Positions 2,301 through 19,042 of a stretch of DNA of 28,351 bases are shown one piece after another. The notes beneath the pieces are model-generated. The model did no database searches. It was not told the origin of the DNA and saw nothing but the letters and a program-made list of their open reading frames with translations. Every line of letters starts with the position of its first letter. The first letter of the stretch is position 1. This stretch comes from a virus. Position numbers and translations under genes: made by a program. The stretch covers positions 1-28,351 of IMG/VR virus record IMGVR_UViG_3300021519_000050; one strand, given 5' to 3'.

Positions 2301-3134
2301 TCAGAACTCGGCTCCATCGTTTTCGCCGCCGCGCATTGATTGCCATTCACCATAGCAGAAGGCAACACCTCCCGACCTCAGCCGATCCACGATGCGCGAG
2401 CCGAGCCACTTGCGGATTGCTTCAGCGGGCGCATTGCCGAGGAATATCGTTTGCAGTCCGGCCTTGTGGCGGCGGTCAAGGATGCTAAATAAAATCTCCT
2501 CGCCGTCCGCTGGCAAATCACGAAGGCAAATCTCGTCCAGCACAAGCAGTTTTGCGGCCGCATACTTGTCGGTGACCAGTTCCGTTTCGTCCGTCTTGTA
2601 GGATCGATGGTAGACCGAGAACAGCCGGGCGCACTCCACCCATGCGACGCTTTGACCGCGTGCCAGCGCCGAGATTGCCAGAGCCGCCGCAAGATGGCCC
2701 TTGCCGATGCCGGGCGTGCCAGCAAAGCCGACGTTGCGCACCTCGCCAGCCTCGAATTTCTTGGCAGCTTCAAGGAACTTCATCGGCGAAACGCAGCCGT
2801 CGCTCGCCTTCGTTGCTGGACGATTGACGCCAAAGTTTTCCAGAGTCGCGTGCCGGACATCAGCCGGGATGCCTGCGACCTCGATTCGCTTGGCGTGCCG
2901 CTTGGCGAGCTTTTCGCGCTCGCAGGCCGGGCATGTCCAAACTGGTTCAGCGGCAGCGCGGGAAGCCTCCCGGTTGAGCATGGCGGCGGTTCCGTGAGAA
3001 TCGCACAAAATAGCCTGTTGGCAGGCGTCAAGCATTCGCTCGAATGCCTCGCTTTTCGCCGTGATCGTCGCGCAGAGCCGGTCAAGACCCGCAAAGGTGA
3101 AGCAGTCGTTCGGTAGTTCGTTAGCGAAGTTCAT
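2301..3134 (-). CDS. DnaC-like helicase loader ATPase
   Basis: The product is 277 aa, an AAA+ ATPase of the DnaC/IstB family expected to load the replicative helicase at the phage origin. Walker A is visible as GTPGIGKGHLA (about residue 142), Walker B as KLLVLDEI (about 195), and a C-terminal sensor/arginine-finger region as SRIVDRLRSGG (about 245-256). An N-terminal CPACEREK (about 72) is a half zinc-finger motif, as in many phage DnaC-like proteins. It directly follows the DUF1376 gene, the classic initiator plus loader pair (compare lambda O and P). The ATG overlaps a TGA that lies two codons beyond the upstream gene's TAG. There is no strong Shine-Dalgarno site. Confidence 0.88.
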   Translation of the reverse strand: MNFANELPNDCFTFAGLDRLCATITAKSEAFERMLDACQQAILCDSHGTAAMLNREASRAAAEPVWTCPACEREKLAKRHAKRIEVAGIPADVRHATLENFGVNRPATKASDGCVSPMKFLEAAKKFEAGEVRNVGFAGTPGIGKGHLAAALAISALARGQSVAWVECARLFSVYHRSYKTDETELVTDKYAAAKLLVLDEICLRDLPADGEEILFSILDRRHKAGLQTIFLGNAPAEAIRKWLGSRIVDRLRSGGVAFCYGEWQSMRGGENDGAEF

Positions 3135-3136
3135 GG

Positions 3137-3895
3137 CTAAAATTTTCCAATTTGGTCAGGGGTTAGGCCAGCGGTTGCTGTGGCGGCGTCATAGGCGGCA
3201 TTGCGCGGCCTTGCGTGGTTTGCCGCGTGTTCTGGCTCTCGTAGCCCTTGCCAGCCTTTCGCGATGGTATGCAGCAGGCAGGCCACGGCGCGAAGCTCTC
3301 CCATCGCCGCGAGTTCGGCGAGTTGTTCGGCCTCCATCGTTGGCTTGAGCGGCTTCTTGATCTCGGAGCGATGGCGTTTCCACTTCGCCCAGGCTTCGGC
3401 AAAAGCTGGCGAGTCGAAGGGCAATGCCAAAACCGGAGACGGAGCCGCAGGCGACTCTTTGTTTACAGCTTTAGCTGTAATAGGGTGGGTGGTGGGTGGT
3501 GGGCATTCCTCATGCAATGCTAGCGGCATGCTGTGAGGATGCTTGTGCATTGCTTGTGCATTGCTTGTGCATTGCTTAGACCATCGAGATTCAGCCATTT
3601 TTTTCCCCTTTTCTGCGGCCTTAGCAATGCGAGCGCGTTGCTCGTCGCGGATCGTTTCCAGCCGCTTGTTCCTACGCAGTCCATCGTCACCAGTTGGAAA
3701 CTTAGAAAGCAGATCGTCAGTGACGCCTTTTCCCGCCAGTCTTTGCAGCTTCGCCAAGTCGGAAGAAAGTCCCTGCTTGAGCCATTGATGGCAAAGCAGC
3801 CGGAGAAATGCAAGTTGCTCGGCGTCGCTGAGATCAGCGACGCCAGCTAGCCAACGCTCAGGGTAAAAGTCGAAAGCGGGCGCGTCCTTCATCAC
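3137..3895 (-). CDS. DUF1376 replication-initiator-like protein
   Basis: The product is 252 aa. The N-terminal 100 residues match the DUF1376 layout: 'FDFYPERWLAG...LSDAEQLAFLRLLCHQW' followed by a segment ending in 'NKRLETIRDEQRARIAKAAEKGKKMAESRW'. Such proteins sit at the initiator position before DnaC-like loaders. The middle (about 105-150) is low-complexity linker rich in His, Pro, Thr and Ala, encoded by the repeat cluster described separately. The C-terminal part (FAEAWAKWKRHRSEIKK onward) is helical. The GTG at 3895 overlaps the previous stop (GTGA), and an ATG at 3892 is equally possible; a GGAGG lies 11 bases before the GTG. The gene ends in TAG, followed by CCA and then TGA. An origin-binding role is inferred from position. 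Confidence 0.78.
   Translation of the reverse strand: MMKDAPAFDFYPERWLAGVADLSDAEQLAFLRLLCHQWLKQGLSSDLAKLQRLAGKGVTDDLLSKFPTGDDGLRRNKRLETIRDEQRARIAKAAEKGKKMAESRWSKQCTSNAQAMHKHPHSMPLALHEECPPPTTHPITAKAVNKESPAAPSPVLALPFDSPAFAEAWAKWKRHRSEIKKPLKPTMEAEQLAELAAMGELRAVACLLHTIAKGWQGLREPEHAANHARPRNAAYDAATATAGLTPDQIGKF
3463..3480. repeat. perfect 8-bp palindrome inside the initiator-like gene
   Basis: TTACAGCT and AGCTGTAA form arms separated by TT (3463-3470 and 3473-3480). It is encoded in the linker of the DUF1376 protein, next to a G-quadruplex motif and tandem 11-bp repeats. It could be part of a replication origin or a protein-binding operator; a chance palindrome is the alternative. Confidence 0.6.
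3483..3503 (+). other. four-tract G-quadruplex motif
   Basis: Four GGG tracts (3483-3485, 3487-3489, 3494-3496 and 3501-3503) are separated by loops of 1, 4 and 4 bases on the plus strand, which fits the canonical G3+N1-7 pattern. The minus strand encodes a Pro/Thr-rich linker (CPPPTTHP). It lies between the palindrome and the iterons. Folding itself is inferred. Confidence 0.65.
3540..3577. repeat. 11-bp tandem iterons (about 3.5 copies)
   Basis: TGCTTGTGCAT repeats exactly at 3540-3550, 3551-3561 and 3562-3572, with a partial copy (TGCTT) at 3573-3577. Eleven bases is close to one DNA turn, so all copies would face the same side of the helix, as with initiator-binding iterons. Because 11 is not a multiple of three, the three copies read in different frames (KQCTSNAQAMHK). 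The unit may also simply have expanded by slippage. Confidence 0.8.
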
Positions 3896-4197: not shown

Positions 4198-4574
4198 GAT
4201 TCCTCCCCTTTCAGGTAATTAATGATCTCGGCTGTCGCCTCTTCCCAGCCTTTGCAGATGCGGACGCGATAGCCGCATTTCGCCAGCCGCTCGCGCCAAA
4301 GCGTTTGCGCTGGCGATAGTTTGCCTCCAACGCGCCGCTTCATCTCGATGAACAGGCCGGAAGCGCCATGAGCAGGCCACGCAAGAAACAGGTCGGGAAC
4401 GCCGGGAACGACGCCCTCCGCCTTGAGTTGCGCGGCGACAGCAGGATGCCGCATGCCGCCGTTTGGAATGGCGAAGAGGTTGTTGAGTTCGGGGATCGTC
4501 GCCCGCGCCAAGGACGCCCATTTGATGAGCGCGGCCTGCTCCGCGTGTTCGGTGGCGAGAGAGTAGGATTTCAC
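4194..4574 (-). CDS. VRR-NUC domain nuclease
   Basis: The product is 126 aa. The GTG start at 4574 was chosen because it overlaps the preceding TGA (GTGA) and has GGAGG 7 bases upstream. The sequence has the VRR-NUC layout: an N-terminal helix with EHAEQAALIKWA, then 'LFAIPNGGMRH', 'GVVPGVPDLFLAWP', 'GLFIEMKRRVGGKLSPAQ' and 'YRVRICKGWEEATAEI'. The Glu, Pro-Asp and Glu-x-Lys residues form the PD-(D/E)XK-type active site. Phage stand-alone VRR-NUC proteins probably cleave branched or structured DNA during replication and recombination. It is close to the usual length and looks intact. Confidence 0.9.
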   Translation of the reverse strand: MKSYSLATEHAEQAALIKWASLARATIPELNNLFAIPNGGMRHPAVAAQLKAEGVVPGVPDLFLAWPAHGASGLFIEMKRRVGGKLSPAQTLWRERLAKCGYRVRICKGWEEATAEIINYLKGEES

Positions 4575-7147: not shown

Positions 7148-7155
7148 GTGGTGGC

Positions 7156-7181
7156 GTTTGGTGGTGGTGTTTGGTGGTGGT
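7156..7181. repeat. 13-bp tandem repeat in the recT leader
   Basis: GTTTGGTGGTGGT occurs at 7156-7168 and 7169-7181 on the plus strand, so the mRNA leader carries C/A-only repeats up to the recT ATG. It replaces any purine-rich ribosome site. It may be an unstructured ribosome standby region, a protein-binding leader, or slippage-derived. Confidence 0.7.
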
Positions 7182-7182
7182 G

Positions 7183-7308
7183 TTAAGCCCAAAGAATAAG
7201 GGCGACTGAAAGGAGAAGGACGAAGCCGAGAACCCATGCGGCCATCATGCCGCAGGCAGTGAGGCTAAACTCTTCGGCGGCGCGGTCAGTAAAAGGTGCA
7301 GTTTTCAT
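7183..7308 (-). CDS. 41-residue membrane peptide
   Basis: The product begins MKTAPFTDRAAEEFSLTACG, followed by a hydrophobic span (about 20-40) ending LLLSVALILWA at the very C-terminus. The start is strongly supported: AAGGAGG lies 7 bases upstream and the ATG overlaps the previous stop (ATGA). It is a tail-anchored, single-span peptide with the charged end probably in the cytoplasm. Function is unknown; small early membrane peptides of phages often modulate host membrane processes, but that is general context only. Confidence 0.62.
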   Translation of the reverse strand: MKTAPFTDRAAEEFSLTACGMMAAWVLGFVLLLSVALILWA

Positions 7309-13981: not shown

Positions 13982-14487
13982 GATGTCAGCAAACCGCTAT
14001 CCCATTGCTACATTTTGGAACCAATCTTTCATCGGGCTGAAGACTGCAATAATTGCAGACGACTGCTCAACGGTCAGATTATATGAATCACGAATTCTTT
14101 CAGCGATTAGTCTTGCCCCATCATACCAGTGAGTTGATCTGACAACGTAATCCGGCGATAACTTTTCAAAAGCATCATAAAGCGCCAAAAGATTTCCCTT
14201 TTGGAAAGCGATGAATGCTCTCATCCTCTCTGTTGGGTCGGTCAAGTCCGTGATATATTTTGGAAGGGGGACGCCGTCGATAAATTGGGTTAGCATTCCC
14301 ATCTGCTTTTTTAGTCCCTTTGGTGTCACCGTGGCAATTCCGTTGTTGGTGTCTTGCGTGGTCGGTTTGACTTTACCTTGCCATGCTGTCCCAACTCGAC
14401 TGCCGTCGTTAATTGGATCTTCTTTAGCGATGCCATCAAAACGAAACCGAGCATCAGCTGAAGAGACGGCGCGGAGGGAGAAGGTTT
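13049..14487. repeat. 11-bp direct repeats flanking an AT-rich domain module
   Basis: GGAGAAGGTTT occurs at 13049-13059 and 14477-14487. The copies are 1428 bases apart, exactly 476 codons, and each encodes the 'TF' of a TFS(I/L) linker. The DNA between is clearly AT-richer than its flanks: 21 of 60 G+C at 13561-13620 and 23 of 60 at 14041-14100, against 43 of 60 at 12241-12300. The module contains the in-frame TAG at 13997-13999. It looks like an exchangeable domain cassette. Confidence 0.7.
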
Positions 14488-17400
14488 CGATTGCAGCGTC
14501 CGGCGTCCATCCGTCTTTCCATTTTTGGATAAATCCGGCGAGCTTGCCAATCTTGGCATTGCCCATGGAAATAGATGCGCGCTTACCGTCGTCATCCTCC
14601 ATGTCCAAGAAAGCATTTCCGTCCGACTCAATCAGCAAATCGGCAAGGCGTGACTTTTGCGCCGCCGTGATGCCATTTCGGCCATGCAGCGTAATTGCTC
14701 CACTTTGGTCAATGCGGACGGCCCCCATCCTCATAAATTCAACCATTGGCATCCATGTCTCTTTGTAGGGTGGCATGCCTTCCCACTCGACCTCGCGATG
14801 ATCGGTTCCGCGACTGCCCTTCATCCAATCCCTTCCGCCATCGGCAGGGAAGTAGAAATCGCCACGGCGCACATACCCAGCGTCAGCACGACCGCTGAAA
14901 TCCAACAGTCTGCCGTCTGGAAGGATATAACCCGCCTCTGTAATGTCGCGAGTCAGCCCGAATCGCTTCACGGCAGACTCAAATGCATCCTTTGCCGCAA
15001 CTGCATTGACCGGCATTTTTGAAATTGAAAACGTCTCTTGCTCCACCGGCTTCCCGTTCTCTTCGAGGATCTTCACAAGCGACTCATCGAAGATGACGTA
15101 GTTGCTCGTGCCGCTTCCGCCGTCGCGAGAGTTGCCGTCGAGGTAGCGAATGCCAGGGATGCCGAGGGAAGCGAGGTGTTCACTGGCTTCCTTGCCCCCT
15201 AAAATTTGTTTTCCAAACCCACGATGCGCCCCTGCGCTAATGTAAATAGAGCGACCATCCTTCCCATCGAGTCCAGCGGCTACTAGGATCGCCCTCACCT
15301 TCTCACTCTGCTCCGACAGCGGCTTGTCCCAGTCCAGAAACTCAGATTCATCTGGCAGGAGTTCGACGGTATAGAGGTTGCCCTTGATAAACTCCGACGG
15401 TTGGGGTATTTTGCCCACATGATCGAACTTACCTGCTCGCAATGCGGAAACATCTTCACTCGAAAGTTTCTCCAGCCCAGCAAATCCGGTTTGCGCTTTT
15501 GCTCCCGCGATTGTCAGCGCGGCGGACAATACATTGACGGCCTCAACTCCGCTGGATACAGGATTATCAGCGTAGGAGGAAAGCAGATATACGAGCATCG
15601 TTGGATTGCTTCGCAAATACTCGGCAGAGTATTGCTTTCCTCCGAGCATGTTCACCACATCAACGGGAACAAGTCTGATAACCGCGTCGAGAATCTCAAG
15701 GTTGTCAAAAATACGGACCATTTCCGCCACGAACACGGACCGCGATGGAATGTCGAGTTGGCTAAAACGCTTCGAGATAAGGGATTCGGTTACAAGCGTC
15801 TTGCTCAAATTCTCAAGGTAAACGCTCTCACGATCAGAGAGGCTTTTATCGCTCGCGGCTGGCATTCCAGCACGCAACCGCGCTTGAGTCGCACTGTCGC
15901 CACTCAAATTCTTGCGGTAACTCTCCGCGACTTCGCGGCTAGAGGCCATATATAAACCGTATCCGTAAGCCTGCGCCCCTTCGCCCGTGCCGATTTTGCT
16001 CGTGCTAAACTTATCGACCTTGTGCGGAGTCCCATGAAAAGCTCGAATTGAAAATGTCGTAGGCCCGACAAGCTGCGCACCGTCTGGCATTTGAACGATC
16101 TTCGAGGCGTCGGCAGGAACGGCGCGAGACATCGAAAACGTTTCGCCATTCGGCCCAGGATTCTCTTCCGAGTAGGACGTGCCACCCACGTTCAGCGCCT
16201 CGTTCGCGATGGCTTCCGCGTCTTTCGCGGCTTCGCTCTCAAACTTGGCTTGCGAGTCGATGCCGAGTTGGCGCTCTAGCTCTGCCGTGATGTCAGCGCC
16301 AAGTTTGCCCTCGCGCTTGAGCTTTGAGAGCTTCGCGGCACGACGCCAGACGGCATTGAAAAACTGCGTCTCCGAGTTCATCGCGCCGCCCATGCCAGCC
16401 TTGAGTACGTCCGCGAAGATCCTCCGCGCTCCACCCTTGCCGATGGCCGCGCCCTTCTTTGATTTGCCGACAAGGTAGGATTGACCGAGTGAAGACCACG
16501 CTTCGATCAAGTCGTCGTTTTGCAATTCGGAATCGTCCGCCACTTTGCGGAAAAGCGAATCGCCGCTCACACGCTCATACTCGCGGAGCTTTGTCAGCAT
16601 CCACTCGCGCCCCGGCTTGCTGGCTACAATCTGCTTTGCGTCACCTTCGAGCTTTTCCTCGACCAGCGTCAAGACGTTTGCGCCTTCATAGAGTTTGATC
16701 GTCGTCCGCAGAACGCCGTCTTTGAACTCGTTCGAGGAGCTGCCAAGAATTTGCAGCGAAGCGAGGTAATCGGAGGTTGCCTTGTCCGTGGCAACGGCGT
16801 TGTCGAAAGTCTCCGCCTCGTTCACTGGTTCCGCCGCAGACTCGCCGACTGCCGCGCCCTGTTGCACGCGCCGCTGGATTTGCGATGCGTCAACGCGGCC
16901 TTCAGCCACGGCCATTTGAGCGGTCATTGCGTCCGGCTTGAACTCCACCGCAAACTCGCGGCCCACTGCCGAACCTCTCTCCAGTTGCGCTAAAGCTTCG
17001 CGTGTTGCGAGATGCACTTTGCCAAGTTGATCCGTCGCCCATTGCCACCGCGCCGCGTCGGCTTCCCTGTGGCTGTTGAAGTCGGCGGTTGAGCCGTCGT
17101 TGAACGTGAGCTTCCAGGCGTTTTCCGAGGCGTGAAGCATTCGAGGCAAAATGCCGCGAGATTCTAAATCCTTCTGTGCCGCGATGGCGTCGCCTTGCAA
17201 CATCCGCATGCGCTCGCCTACCGTCTTGGCTGCGGCCTCGATGCTCTGCGGAGTGCCAGCACGAGCGCCCCACAACTCCCGCGCCTTGCTGATCTTCGCC
17301 TCTTCCGTGGTTTGAAGTCGAACCTGGTTCGCTTGCGCAGCGGAATAGCCAGCAGCCTCTAGCATGTCCTGCGAAGAAATGGCGGCAGCGGATAGATTCG

Positions 17401-19042
17401 CCTGCGCGGCGGTCATCATGCCGCCGAACACGAGCGCCATGGGTGCAATCGTCCAAAATAGCTCTGGAAAGCTCTTCTTCACATTTGCGTTGATGTTGTT
17501 CCAAAGCTCGCCCATGCCAATCTGCGGCAAGGATTCATCGAAGGCAGCGGCAACCTTTTCGATCACAGGGCCAACAACATGAGTTTGAAGGTTTTCCTCC
17601 GTCAATTCTAAACCCAAAGACGCGAGCGTATTTTGACCGTAGCGAACAACGGCTGCGGTAGAACCTGAACGAATGGGCTTTGTCAATCCAGATAGGACGC
17701 GCTGAACAGCAGGGAATCTGCCAAGCTGCGTCATGTTTGACAAGCTTTCGATACCTGCCAAAAATGGAGCTTCGATCATGCCTAAAGCGGTCGCGTCCTC
17801 GTTGTCCCATCCCTCCGCCCGCAAGTCTCGCCTGCGCTGCTCCGCAAAGTCGGCGGTCATAATGGCCGAACCGCCAAGAAAGCCCGTCGCGGCGGAAACC
17901 ATCATAAACGGCGCAACGGCCCCCGGCCCCTTGATAAGTCCCGTTTCAACGGAGTCATTCAGCCAGGAGATAACCGGCTTCACCGGATCAACGCCACCGG
18001 CCACGATGCCCGCAATCTCGTCATACATCTCACCAATGCCCTGCCGTCTCGCAATGCTCGCGTCTGTGGCGGCAAACTCTTCCGGCTTCATGGTGTTCGA
18101 CAGCATGGCGGGCAGGTTCGCCAGAACGTCACCAGTCACGCCCGCTTGCGTCGTGAGCGTGCTTCCCATGCGAGCCGTCCCTTTGCCGAGTTCGGAAAGC
18201 ATCTGGCTCCAGAAGCCCTTCTGGTCATAGCCCGCCGCTTCCGCCTTCGCGCCGATGATGGCGTAAACCTGCTTTCGATCCCTTGGCTTCATCGTCGCCA
18301 GCGTCGCCAAGGATTCCTCGAATTGTGCGGTCATCTCACGGCTTGCTGGCGCTGGCCTTTGCCCGCCGTCGCCTTTCGTGAGTCCTGTATTGCTCTCAAT
18401 CTGTTTCAAAAGCACGTCTGCAAATTCGAGGTGTTCGCCAGCGCGTTCCCGCGCCTGCAAAAAGCCACGAGTGAACTCGGTAGAGTCCGGCATACGGTCA
18501 AGGTTCTTGGCCTGCCACGCTTGCAGCGACGGAATCACGTCGTCACCACGGAGCGCGGCCTTGACGCCTTCCGCCTCGGTGTCCTCTTTCTGCTTCACGC
18601 GCTTGATCTCGTTCGCGGCGGATGCGTGGAAAGCAAGATCGTCTAAACCCTTTGGAGCTTGGAGGAATCGTGTCGCGTAGTCATCGCGCCAAAGCTCATA
18701 CGATGAGCCGATCTCGTCCGCTGTTTTGCCGTAGCGAGTCGCGAGATAAGCGGTATTTGCCACTCGCGCCCGGTCGGCGTCTGGATTCTCGGAGTAGGGC
18801 AGGACGGCAGCGAGCGAGGGCGCGGCGGCATCTACCGTTTTTAGGTCATCGAAGAACCCGCGCAGGCGGTCAGAATCAGCTTGTCGCGCCTGCGCTTGCG
18901 ACGGCCATTCAGGCTCGCCGTTGTCGTCCTGCTGCTGCTTGTAGCGAGCGAGAATATCGAGCGCCTGCGGGCGTTGCGCCTCGTCCATGGAGTCCATTCC
19001 ACGAGCGAGAGCGAAGGCGTCATTTTCCAAGATTCGGGGCAT
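13997..19042 (-). CDS. giant polyvalent ejection protein, N-terminal part with ART domain (1681 aa)
   Basis: It sits at the T7 gp16 position. Residues 1-900 are mostly helical, with hydrophobic patches at about 375-400 and 530-555 (APFMMVSAATGFLGG; FWTIAPMALVFGGMMTAAQA) that could insert into membranes during ejection. After TFS linkers at about 967 and 995, an ART-PolyVal-type ADP-ribosyltransferase domain begins with 'HGTPHKVDKFSTSKIGTGEG' (about 1003) and resumes at 'KGNLYTVELLPDESEFLDWD' (about 1219) up to 1327. The intervening ~165 residues are antisense to an HNH endonuclease gene. Linker 3 (about 1336) opens a 'GYILPDGRLLDFSG...DHREVEW' domain, and linker 4 (about 1519) opens the AT-rich module, which is cut by TAG. 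The start overlaps the previous gene by 23 bases. Confidence 0.75.
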   Translation of the reverse strand: MPRILENDAFALARGMDSMDEAQRPQALDILARYKQQQDDNGEPEWPSQAQARQADSDRLRGFFDDLKTVDAAAPSLAAVLPYSENPDADRARVANTAYLATRYGKTADEIGSSYELWRDDYATRFLQAPKGLDDLAFHASAANEIKRVKQKEDTEAEGVKAALRGDDVIPSLQAWQAKNLDRMPDSTEFTRGFLQARERAGEHLEFADVLLKQIESNTGLTKGDGGQRPAPASREMTAQFEESLATLATMKPRDRKQVYAIIGAKAEAAGYDQKGFWSQMLSELGKGTARMGSTLTTQAGVTGDVLANLPAMLSNTMKPEEFAATDASIARRQGIGEMYDEIAGIVAGGVDPVKPVISWLNDSVETGLIKGPGAVAPFMMVSAATGFLGGSAIMTADFAEQRRRDLRAEGWDNEDATALGMIEAPFLAGIESLSNMTQLGRFPAVQRVLSGLTKPIRSGSTAAVVRYGQNTLASLGLELTEENLQTHVVGPVIEKVAAAFDESLPQIGMGELWNNINANVKKSFPELFWTIAPMALVFGGMMTAAQANLSAAAISSQDMLEAAGYSAAQANQVRLQTTEEAKISKARELWGARAGTPQSIEAAAKTVGERMRMLQGDAIAAQKDLESRGILPRMLHASENAWKLTFNDGSTADFNSHREADAARWQWATDQLGKVHLATREALAQLERGSAVGREFAVEFKPDAMTAQMAVAEGRVDASQIQRRVQQGAAVGESAAEPVNEAETFDNAVATDKATSDYLASLQILGSSSNEFKDGVLRTTIKLYEGANVLTLVEEKLEGDAKQIVASKPGREWMLTKLREYERVSGDSLFRKVADDSELQNDDLIEAWSSLGQSYLVGKSKKGAAIGKGGARRIFADVLKAGMGGAMNSETQFFNAVWRRAAKLSKLKREGKLGADITAELERQLGIDSQAKFESEAAKDAEAIANEALNVGGTSYSEENPGPNGETFSMSRAVPADASKIVQMPDGAQLVGPTTFSIRAFHGTPHKVDKFSTSKIGTGEGAQAYGYGLYMASSREVAESYRKNLSGDSATQARLRAGMPAASDKSLSDRESVYLENLSKTLVTESLISKRFSQLDIPSRSVFVAEMVRIFDNLEILDAVIRLVPVDVVNMLGGKQYSAEYLRSNPTMLVYLLSSYADNPVSSGVEAVNVLSAALTIAGAKAQTGFAGLEKLSSEDVSALRAGKFDHVGKIPQPSEFIKGNLYTVELLPDESEFLDWDKPLSEQSEKVRAILVAAGLDGKDGRSIYISAGAHRGFGKQILGGKEASEHLASLGIPGIRYLDGNSRDGGSGTSNYVIFDESLVKILEENGKPVEQETFSISKMPVNAVAAKDAFESAVKRFGLTRDITEAGYILPDGRLLDFSGRADAGYVRRGDFYFPADGGRDWMKGSRGTDHREVEWEGMPPYKETWMPMVEFMRMGAVRIDQSGAITLHGRNGITAAQKSRLADLLIESDGNAFLDMEDDDGKRASISMGNAKIGKLAGFIQKWKDGWTPDAAIETFSLRAVSSADARFRFDGIAKEDPINDGSRVGTAWQGKVKPTTQDTNNGIATVTPKGLKKQMGMLTQFIDGVPLPKYITDLTDPTERMRAFIAFQKGNLLALYDAFEKLSPDYVVRSTHWYDGARLIAERIRDSYNLTVEQSSAIIAVFSPMKDWFQNVAMG
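15419..15955 (+). CDS. HNH homing endonuclease, antisense inside the polyvalent gene
   Basis: The product is 178 aa. An N-terminal zinc knuckle (LTCSQCGNIF...FCSRDCQ) is followed by 'YRIISVGGKQIYEHRW' and a full HNH core, 'HVHHINGNKSDNRVENLKVV' with downstream H-x3-H (HFRHEH), at about 75-110. A helix-turn-helix-like tail (GYKRLAQILKVNALTIREAF) probably reads the target site. ATG 15419 is preferred to TTG 15401 because the zinc knuckle starts right after it. Natural sequence seems to end near 'IARGWH'; the last ~25 codons are antisense ART sequence before TAA. This is the only plausible plus-strand gene. Its codons are in exact register with the minus-strand gene, and none is TTA, CTA or TCA. 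Confidence 0.86.
   Translation: MIELTCSQCGNIFTRKFLQPSKSGLRFCSRDCQRGGQYIDGLNSAGYRIISVGGKQIYEHRWIASQILGRVLLSSEHVHHINGNKSDNRVENLKVVKNTDHFRHEHGPRWNVELAKTLRDKGFGYKRLAQILKVNALTIREAFIARGWHSSTQPRLSRTVATQILAVTLRDFAARGHI

Follow-up and report, generated by a model that had tools for sequence, protein, structure and literature searches.

Where does a phage with a DUF1376 gene begin to replicate its DNA? The question is raised by a 28,351-base phage record (the window, i.e. the whole stretch of DNA that was analyzed), an incomplete fragment with head, tail, and replication genes on the minus strand. A preliminary description had reported a palindrome, a G-quadruplex motif, and 11-bp iterons inside one of the replication genes, and had read them as a lambda-like origin. 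All three elements are present where it had placed them.

The initiator-like gene and its repeats

The gene that holds the repeats (Table 1) encodes a protein of 251 aa, in which a divergent N-terminal DUF1376 domain (residues 7–79) is followed by a disordered linker (residues ∼117–160) and then by a helical C-terminal domain. The match to DUF1376 (PF07120; E 5e-6, 27.2 bits) narrowly misses the Pfam cut-off of 30.1. The domain was aligned end to end between the window protein and its closest relatives, and the PHROG matches were to “primosomal protein” and “replication initiation O-like”. Directly downstream of the DUF1376 gene lies a gene for a DnaC-like loader or DnaB, an arrangement that holds in PfDIW6, AH02, and Lbo240. 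The gene context given earlier for the window, DUF1376 upstream of a DnaC-like loader, was confirmed by the Pfam match and by that of the loader (Table 1). In an AlphaFold model of the protein (mean pLDDT 78), the N-domain is compact, the linker has low confidence, and the C-domain is helical; a long helix is also present. Foldseek searches with this model returned no match at E 0.001 or less; the N-domain model weakly resembles the winged-helix domains of ORC2 and MarR-type regulators (best Z 4.9).

DUF1376 is present in many phages and in YdaU of the Rac prophage of E. coli K-12. The window protein gave no tblastn match to named phages at 1e-5, and named-phage relatives were reached via YdaU as an intermediate. 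In the genome collection, the nearest relatives come almost entirely from Verrucomicrobiota records, so the host of the window phage probably belongs to this phylum. Elsewhere in the window, a 184-aa ORF resembling an HNH homing endonuclease (15401–15955, plus strand) lies antisense within an uninterrupted 1681-aa ORF (13997–19042, minus strand), and may have been inserted without closing the host frame.

Table 1. Features at the candidate origin and in its operon (positions in the window).
Feature	Positions	Strand	Basis or remark
DnaC-like helicase loader gene, next downstream	2301–3134	−	phrog_50, E 5.8e-39; IstB_IS21, E 1.8e-16
Initiator-like gene	3137–3892	−	Pfam DUF1376 match; PHROG primosomal / O-like replication initiation; AlphaFold model
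Candidate opening region, 30 bp past the heptamers	3453–3482		Family mean AT +6%; includes palindrome 3463–3480
Heptamer microrepeat array, coding strand CCCACCA/CCACCAC	3483–3503	−	TRF, period 7
Iterons, seven in-register units of 11 bp	3500–3577	−	TRF and codon-shuffle register test

The 11-bp iterons reported at 3540–3577 are real: the 3.5 copies are 100% identical, and no tandem repeat in the window has a higher TRF score (76). The array also extends further than had been claimed. On the coding strand, three perfect units of AGCAATGCACA are followed by the degenerate units AGCATCCTCAC, AGCATGCCGCT, AGCATTGCATG, and AGGAATGCCCA, giving seven in all. These four degenerate units equal the consensus at 27/44 positions, compared with a mean of 12.2 and a maximum of 25 in 20,000 codon shuffles. 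The 11-bp spacing corresponds to one helical turn. The last degenerate units run straight into the heptamers CCACCCACCACCC (coding strand), the 7-bp array thus abutting the 11-bp array, and both sit in the linker between the two protein modules. No other 5–8-bp array in the window scores 12 or more.

The palindrome, TTACAGCT-TT-AGCTGTAA, is found exactly at 3463–3480. The window contains 6 perfect inverted repeats with 8-base arms and loops of up to 4, where a first-order Markov model predicts 3.8, and in 13 relatives the palindrome was not conserved (best match 12/18). Being neither above chance nor conserved, it is best regarded as incidental, and we rejected it as a part of the origin.

GC skew gave no signal in the window, an incomplete fragment. 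In three of four complete relatives the skew minimum lies within 1.8–3.1 kb of the gene, a weak sign that is confounded by the divergence of transcription at the same place, and the skew of PfDIW6 is at odds with an origin in the DUF1376 gene.

Linker arrays across the DUF1376 family

A total of 197 DUF1376 genes were gathered from viral contigs and genomes by protein homology and not by their repeats; 178 of these were complete, and they were reduced to 117 non-redundant genes at 60% identity. The linker DNA (codons 70–230) was scanned for self-matches, and 391 windows from neighboring ORFs together with codon shuffles served as controls. The scan thresholds are arbitrary, and the period spectrum holds at two of them. 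Peaks were found at periods of 6, 7 (with 14, 21, 28, and 35), 11, 12, 22, 23, and 33, and the controls were near zero. Lag-7 arrays occurred in 53.8% of the 117 linkers compared to 0.8% of control windows and 0% of codon shuffles, figures that, like all counts in this survey, are to be read as non-independent tests since the surveyed genes are related. The corresponding values for linkers and control windows were 23.9% and 0.5% at lag 11, 28.2% and 1.3% at lag 12, 12.8% and 0.3% at lag 22, and 12.8% and 0 at lag 23. Lags of 5, 8, 10, 13, 16, 17, 19, and 20 were seen in 0–1% of linkers, and periods 9 and 15 were barely enriched.

At a fixed threshold, 97/117 genes contained a 6/7-mer array, 69/117 an 11/12-type array, and 60/117 both (16, 17, and 2 of the 391 control windows, respectively). 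For all 60 genes with both, the iterons were located 5′ of the microrepeats, with a gap of −3 to 73 nt. Neither array was detected in 11/117 homologues, which counts against an origin. Four complete phage genomes were scanned along with the window, and arrays of these types were nearly confined to the DUF1376 gene. Nearly all of the nearest viral relatives have a linker array of 11 or 12 bp (or 22, 23, or 33) and then CCACCAC/CCCACCA heptamers, and the iteron sequences vary among them. One relative, L049, contains 23 copies of the 12-bp unit CCAAGCAGTGCT (∼4207–4481), which encode a long PSSA repeat and may be an extreme case of array expansion. Exact periods can drift, as seen in L247 (Acinetobacter phage vB_ApiM_IME-Ap7), where codons ∼114–157 hold a microrepeat of period 8 and an iteron of period 32.

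Where two relatives share a residue, the proportion of identical codons was 0.892 in the iterons and 0.883 in the microrepeats, compared to 0.653 in the N-domain and 0.608 in the C-domain. Codon identity in the iterons exceeded that in the rest of the gene in 46/49 pairs, and that in the microrepeats did so in 37/42. Dyad symmetry of the iteron units (4 or more of 5) reached 56% vs. 19% when shuffled; examples are CGCTCAGCG, TCGCAATGCGA, and AACCGCGGTT. The microrepeats are G-poor on the coding strand (7.8% G vs. 28% over whole genes), and family mean AT content is raised by ∼7% within them and by ∼6% in the next 30 bp. These gene comparisons show a constraint on the linker arrays that acts on the DNA itself and holds throughout the DUF1376 family.

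Low-complexity repeats might also arise by neutral slippage, or by selection on the protein, in a linker that is predicted to be disordered and where repeats would be tolerated. Hexamer arrays are the weaker case in this respect, because a period of 6 could equally be a dipeptide repeat. None of the periods 7, 11, 22, and 23 is divisible by 3; they run through all frames, so these arrays are not simple peptide repeats, and periods 9 and 15 stand out little. Together with the order seen in 60/60 genes, the synonymous conservation, and the zero in codon shuffles, this led us to reject slippage or protein-level selection as the source, an explanation to which we attach next to no probability.

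A functional G-quadruplex at 3483–3503 is equally improbable in our judgment, although the motif reported there, GGGTGGGTGGTGGGTGGTGGG on the plus strand, exists and is the only four-tract G4 motif of the window, and several high-GC relatives share the CCCACCA heptamers. The period-7 and period-6 arrays of most relatives are without G-tracts (CCAATAA, CCAAGAA, CCAGACA, TCTTCA); what is conserved is period, position, and strand bias. The G-quadruplex was therefore rejected as a conserved property, and the motif in the window is a GC-rich variant of the heptamer array. That the microrepeat of the window is GC-rich, whereas the usual unwinding element is AT-rich, counts against an origin at this site.

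CCACCAC heptamer runs also occur outside initiator genes, a further point against an origin. Only 5/19 matches in a database scan were located in initiator linkers, and the heptamer alone was rejected as an origin finder for want of specificity. Some runs immediately precede what appear to be the start codons of unrelated phage genes (L011, L012, L013, L015/L021/L024, and L020) and look like parts of 5′ leaders. In the window, a 13-bp repeat that resembles these leader repeats (GTGGTGGTGTTTG, coding strand CAAACACCACCAC; 2.8 copies by TRF, 7148–7184) lies immediately before the probable start of a RecT-like gene.

A candidate origin within the initiator gene

Iteron similarity was related to N-domain similarity with a partial Mantel value of 0.149, reached by none of 500 permutations; the value for the C-domain was 0.062. 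This is seen most clearly in L002, whose N-domain is 73% identical to that of the window protein and whose C-domain is different: the AGCAATGCACA unit is shared, and L002 has six register units based on it, ending in AAGAATGCCCACCAC. The earlier description would have been refuted by close relatives with the protein linker but none of its three elements; L002 retains the heptamers as well as the 11-bp unit and is without the palindrome only.

Similarities of the N- and C-domains are themselves almost uncorrelated (0.026), which marks the linker as a shuffling point. The arrays might accordingly be a recombination joint whose repeats promote swaps of the C-terminal domain between phages. Exchange would leave the dyads, the one-turn spacing, and the fixed order unexplained, and the unit sequences differ between families, so that little shared homology is available for it. 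We consider a recombination joint very improbable; the domain shuffling may simply follow from the array being held in one position.

DNA-level constraint and dyad units would suit any target of a DNA-binding protein, and the sites lie within the replication operon. The arrays could thus be a control element other than an origin, e.g. an operator used by the initiator to repress the operon that encodes it, or a site for partition or anchoring. Several observations make this improbable, if somewhat less so than a recombination joint: the array is located mid-gene and not at a promoter, an operator has no need of a further 6/7-bp array with strand bias and a fixed order, the matching layout in lambda is a proven origin (PMC7466680), and partition genes were not noticed in the window.

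Comparative sequence evidence thus favors an origin, and we regard it as highly probable that the candidate region at ∼3453–3577 is a lambda-like phage replication origin inside the gene of its own initiator. The earlier proposal of such an origin beside a loader gene is borne out by the family-wide arrays in fixed order, the synonymous conservation, the tracking of the N-domain, and the lambda O control described below.

In the mechanism that we propose, copies of the initiator would attach to the iterons by their N-terminal DUF1376 domain, which is winged-helix-like, and form a complex resembling the lambda O-some. The scheme as a whole, including cooperative binding, follows lambda O, SPP1 gp38 (PMC6316719), and plasmid initiators (PMC10797057). 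The bound complex would open the adjoining microrepeat tract and ∼30 bp beyond, and one strand would be kept as single-stranded DNA. The exchangeable C-terminal domain would then recruit the helicase loader encoded by the adjacent gene (DnaC-like here; a loader or DnaB in relatives). With the array inside the gene, the domain that binds DNA is passed on along with its sites, even as the C-terminal module is exchanged.

The surprise is the family-wide rule rather than the three features as first listed. DUF1376, a domain of unknown function, gains a concrete predicted role. If the reading is true, the likely origin of DUF1376 phages can be found from sequence, as 11/12-bp dyads and then 6/7-bp repeats within the initiator linker, and the layout, which recurs in most relatives, may mark the start of replication in many uncharacterized phages. 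Since the binding domain and its sites are in one gene and differ between relatives, co-evolution of initiator and origin is directly testable. GC-rich heptamers in the usual place of the AT-rich unwinding tract challenge the simple view that AT-rich DNA melts first. In-gene origins are known; the family-wide DUF1376 version appears to be undescribed in the open-access papers searched, and single cases have perhaps been described elsewhere. Of five such papers that mention DUF1376, PMC5795418 names the domain in a list and no more, and the others, by title and abstract, do not point to work on origins.

Comparison with known origins

The closest parallel is lambda, where the origin inside gene O is experimentally established (PMC7466680). 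An identical scan of lambda O, used as positive control, recovered the annotated ori iterons at codons 116–141, and an AAAAGAA microrepeat was seen directly 3′ of them (AAAAGAAAAAAGAAAA). As in the window, the dyad iterons of lambda and Stx phage origins lie midway along the initiator gene, an asymmetric tract follows them, and the helicase-loader gene adjoins (PMC7466680). The iterons of lambda are 18 bp long and spaced 20–24 bp, whereas the DUF1376 units are 11–12 bp at one-turn spacing; the tract that follows is AT-rich in lambda and consists of 6/7-mers, sometimes GC-rich, in DUF1376 genes. The N-domains also differ: lambda O matches Phage_rep_O (PF04492) at E 5.7e-36, and the window protein, with DUF1376 in its place, gave no match to Phage_rep_O up to E 1. 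By analogy the window protein may work like O, and we do not class it as a member of the O family.

SPP1 oriL, by description, likewise combines direct repeats and an unwinding element inside an initiator gene, gene 38, which is accompanied by the genes for the loader gp39 and the helicase gp40 (PMC6316719). Iterons together with repeats in the unwinding element are also found in the iteron plasmids RK2, F, and R6K, in which the winged-helix Rep binds the repeats of the unwinding element as single strand (PMC10797057). Plasmid origins of this kind have an AT-rich unwinding element (PMC10797057), whereas the DUF1376 arrays lie in a coding linker and their tract can be GC-rich.

Phage initiators of the DnaT type (epsilon15, CP2, and phiPSA1) resemble DUF1376 genes in having linker dyads, GTAACG/CGTTAC and GTCCGC/GCGGAC, and then a small array, here the 5-bp AGAGA; a replication gene usually adjoins. 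Their N-domain is not matched by the DUF1376 model, and their microrepeat is purine-rich with a period of 5 or 6. In further DnaT-type genes (L237–L245 and L008), dyads and an array of 5-bp AGAGA (or of 6 bp) are found at the corresponding point of the linker. Another initiator, L023/L236, contains a 12-bp repeat, CCACCAC heptamers, and GATCAA hexamers; a search for further relatives of it returned only the L023 type itself. Among the families sampled, sequence layout suggests that the arrangement may extend beyond DUF1376. Strand-biased microrepeats of 5–8 nt beside one-turn dyad iterons might then be a general, unnamed origin element shared by several unrelated initiator families (DUF1376, the DnaT type, the L023/L236 type, and faintly lambda O), a generalization that we offer tentatively and with some doubt. 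Such an element would act as a strand-specific, single-stranded platform on which the initiator or the helicase loader assembles, and its period and strand bias would matter rather than its AT-richness.
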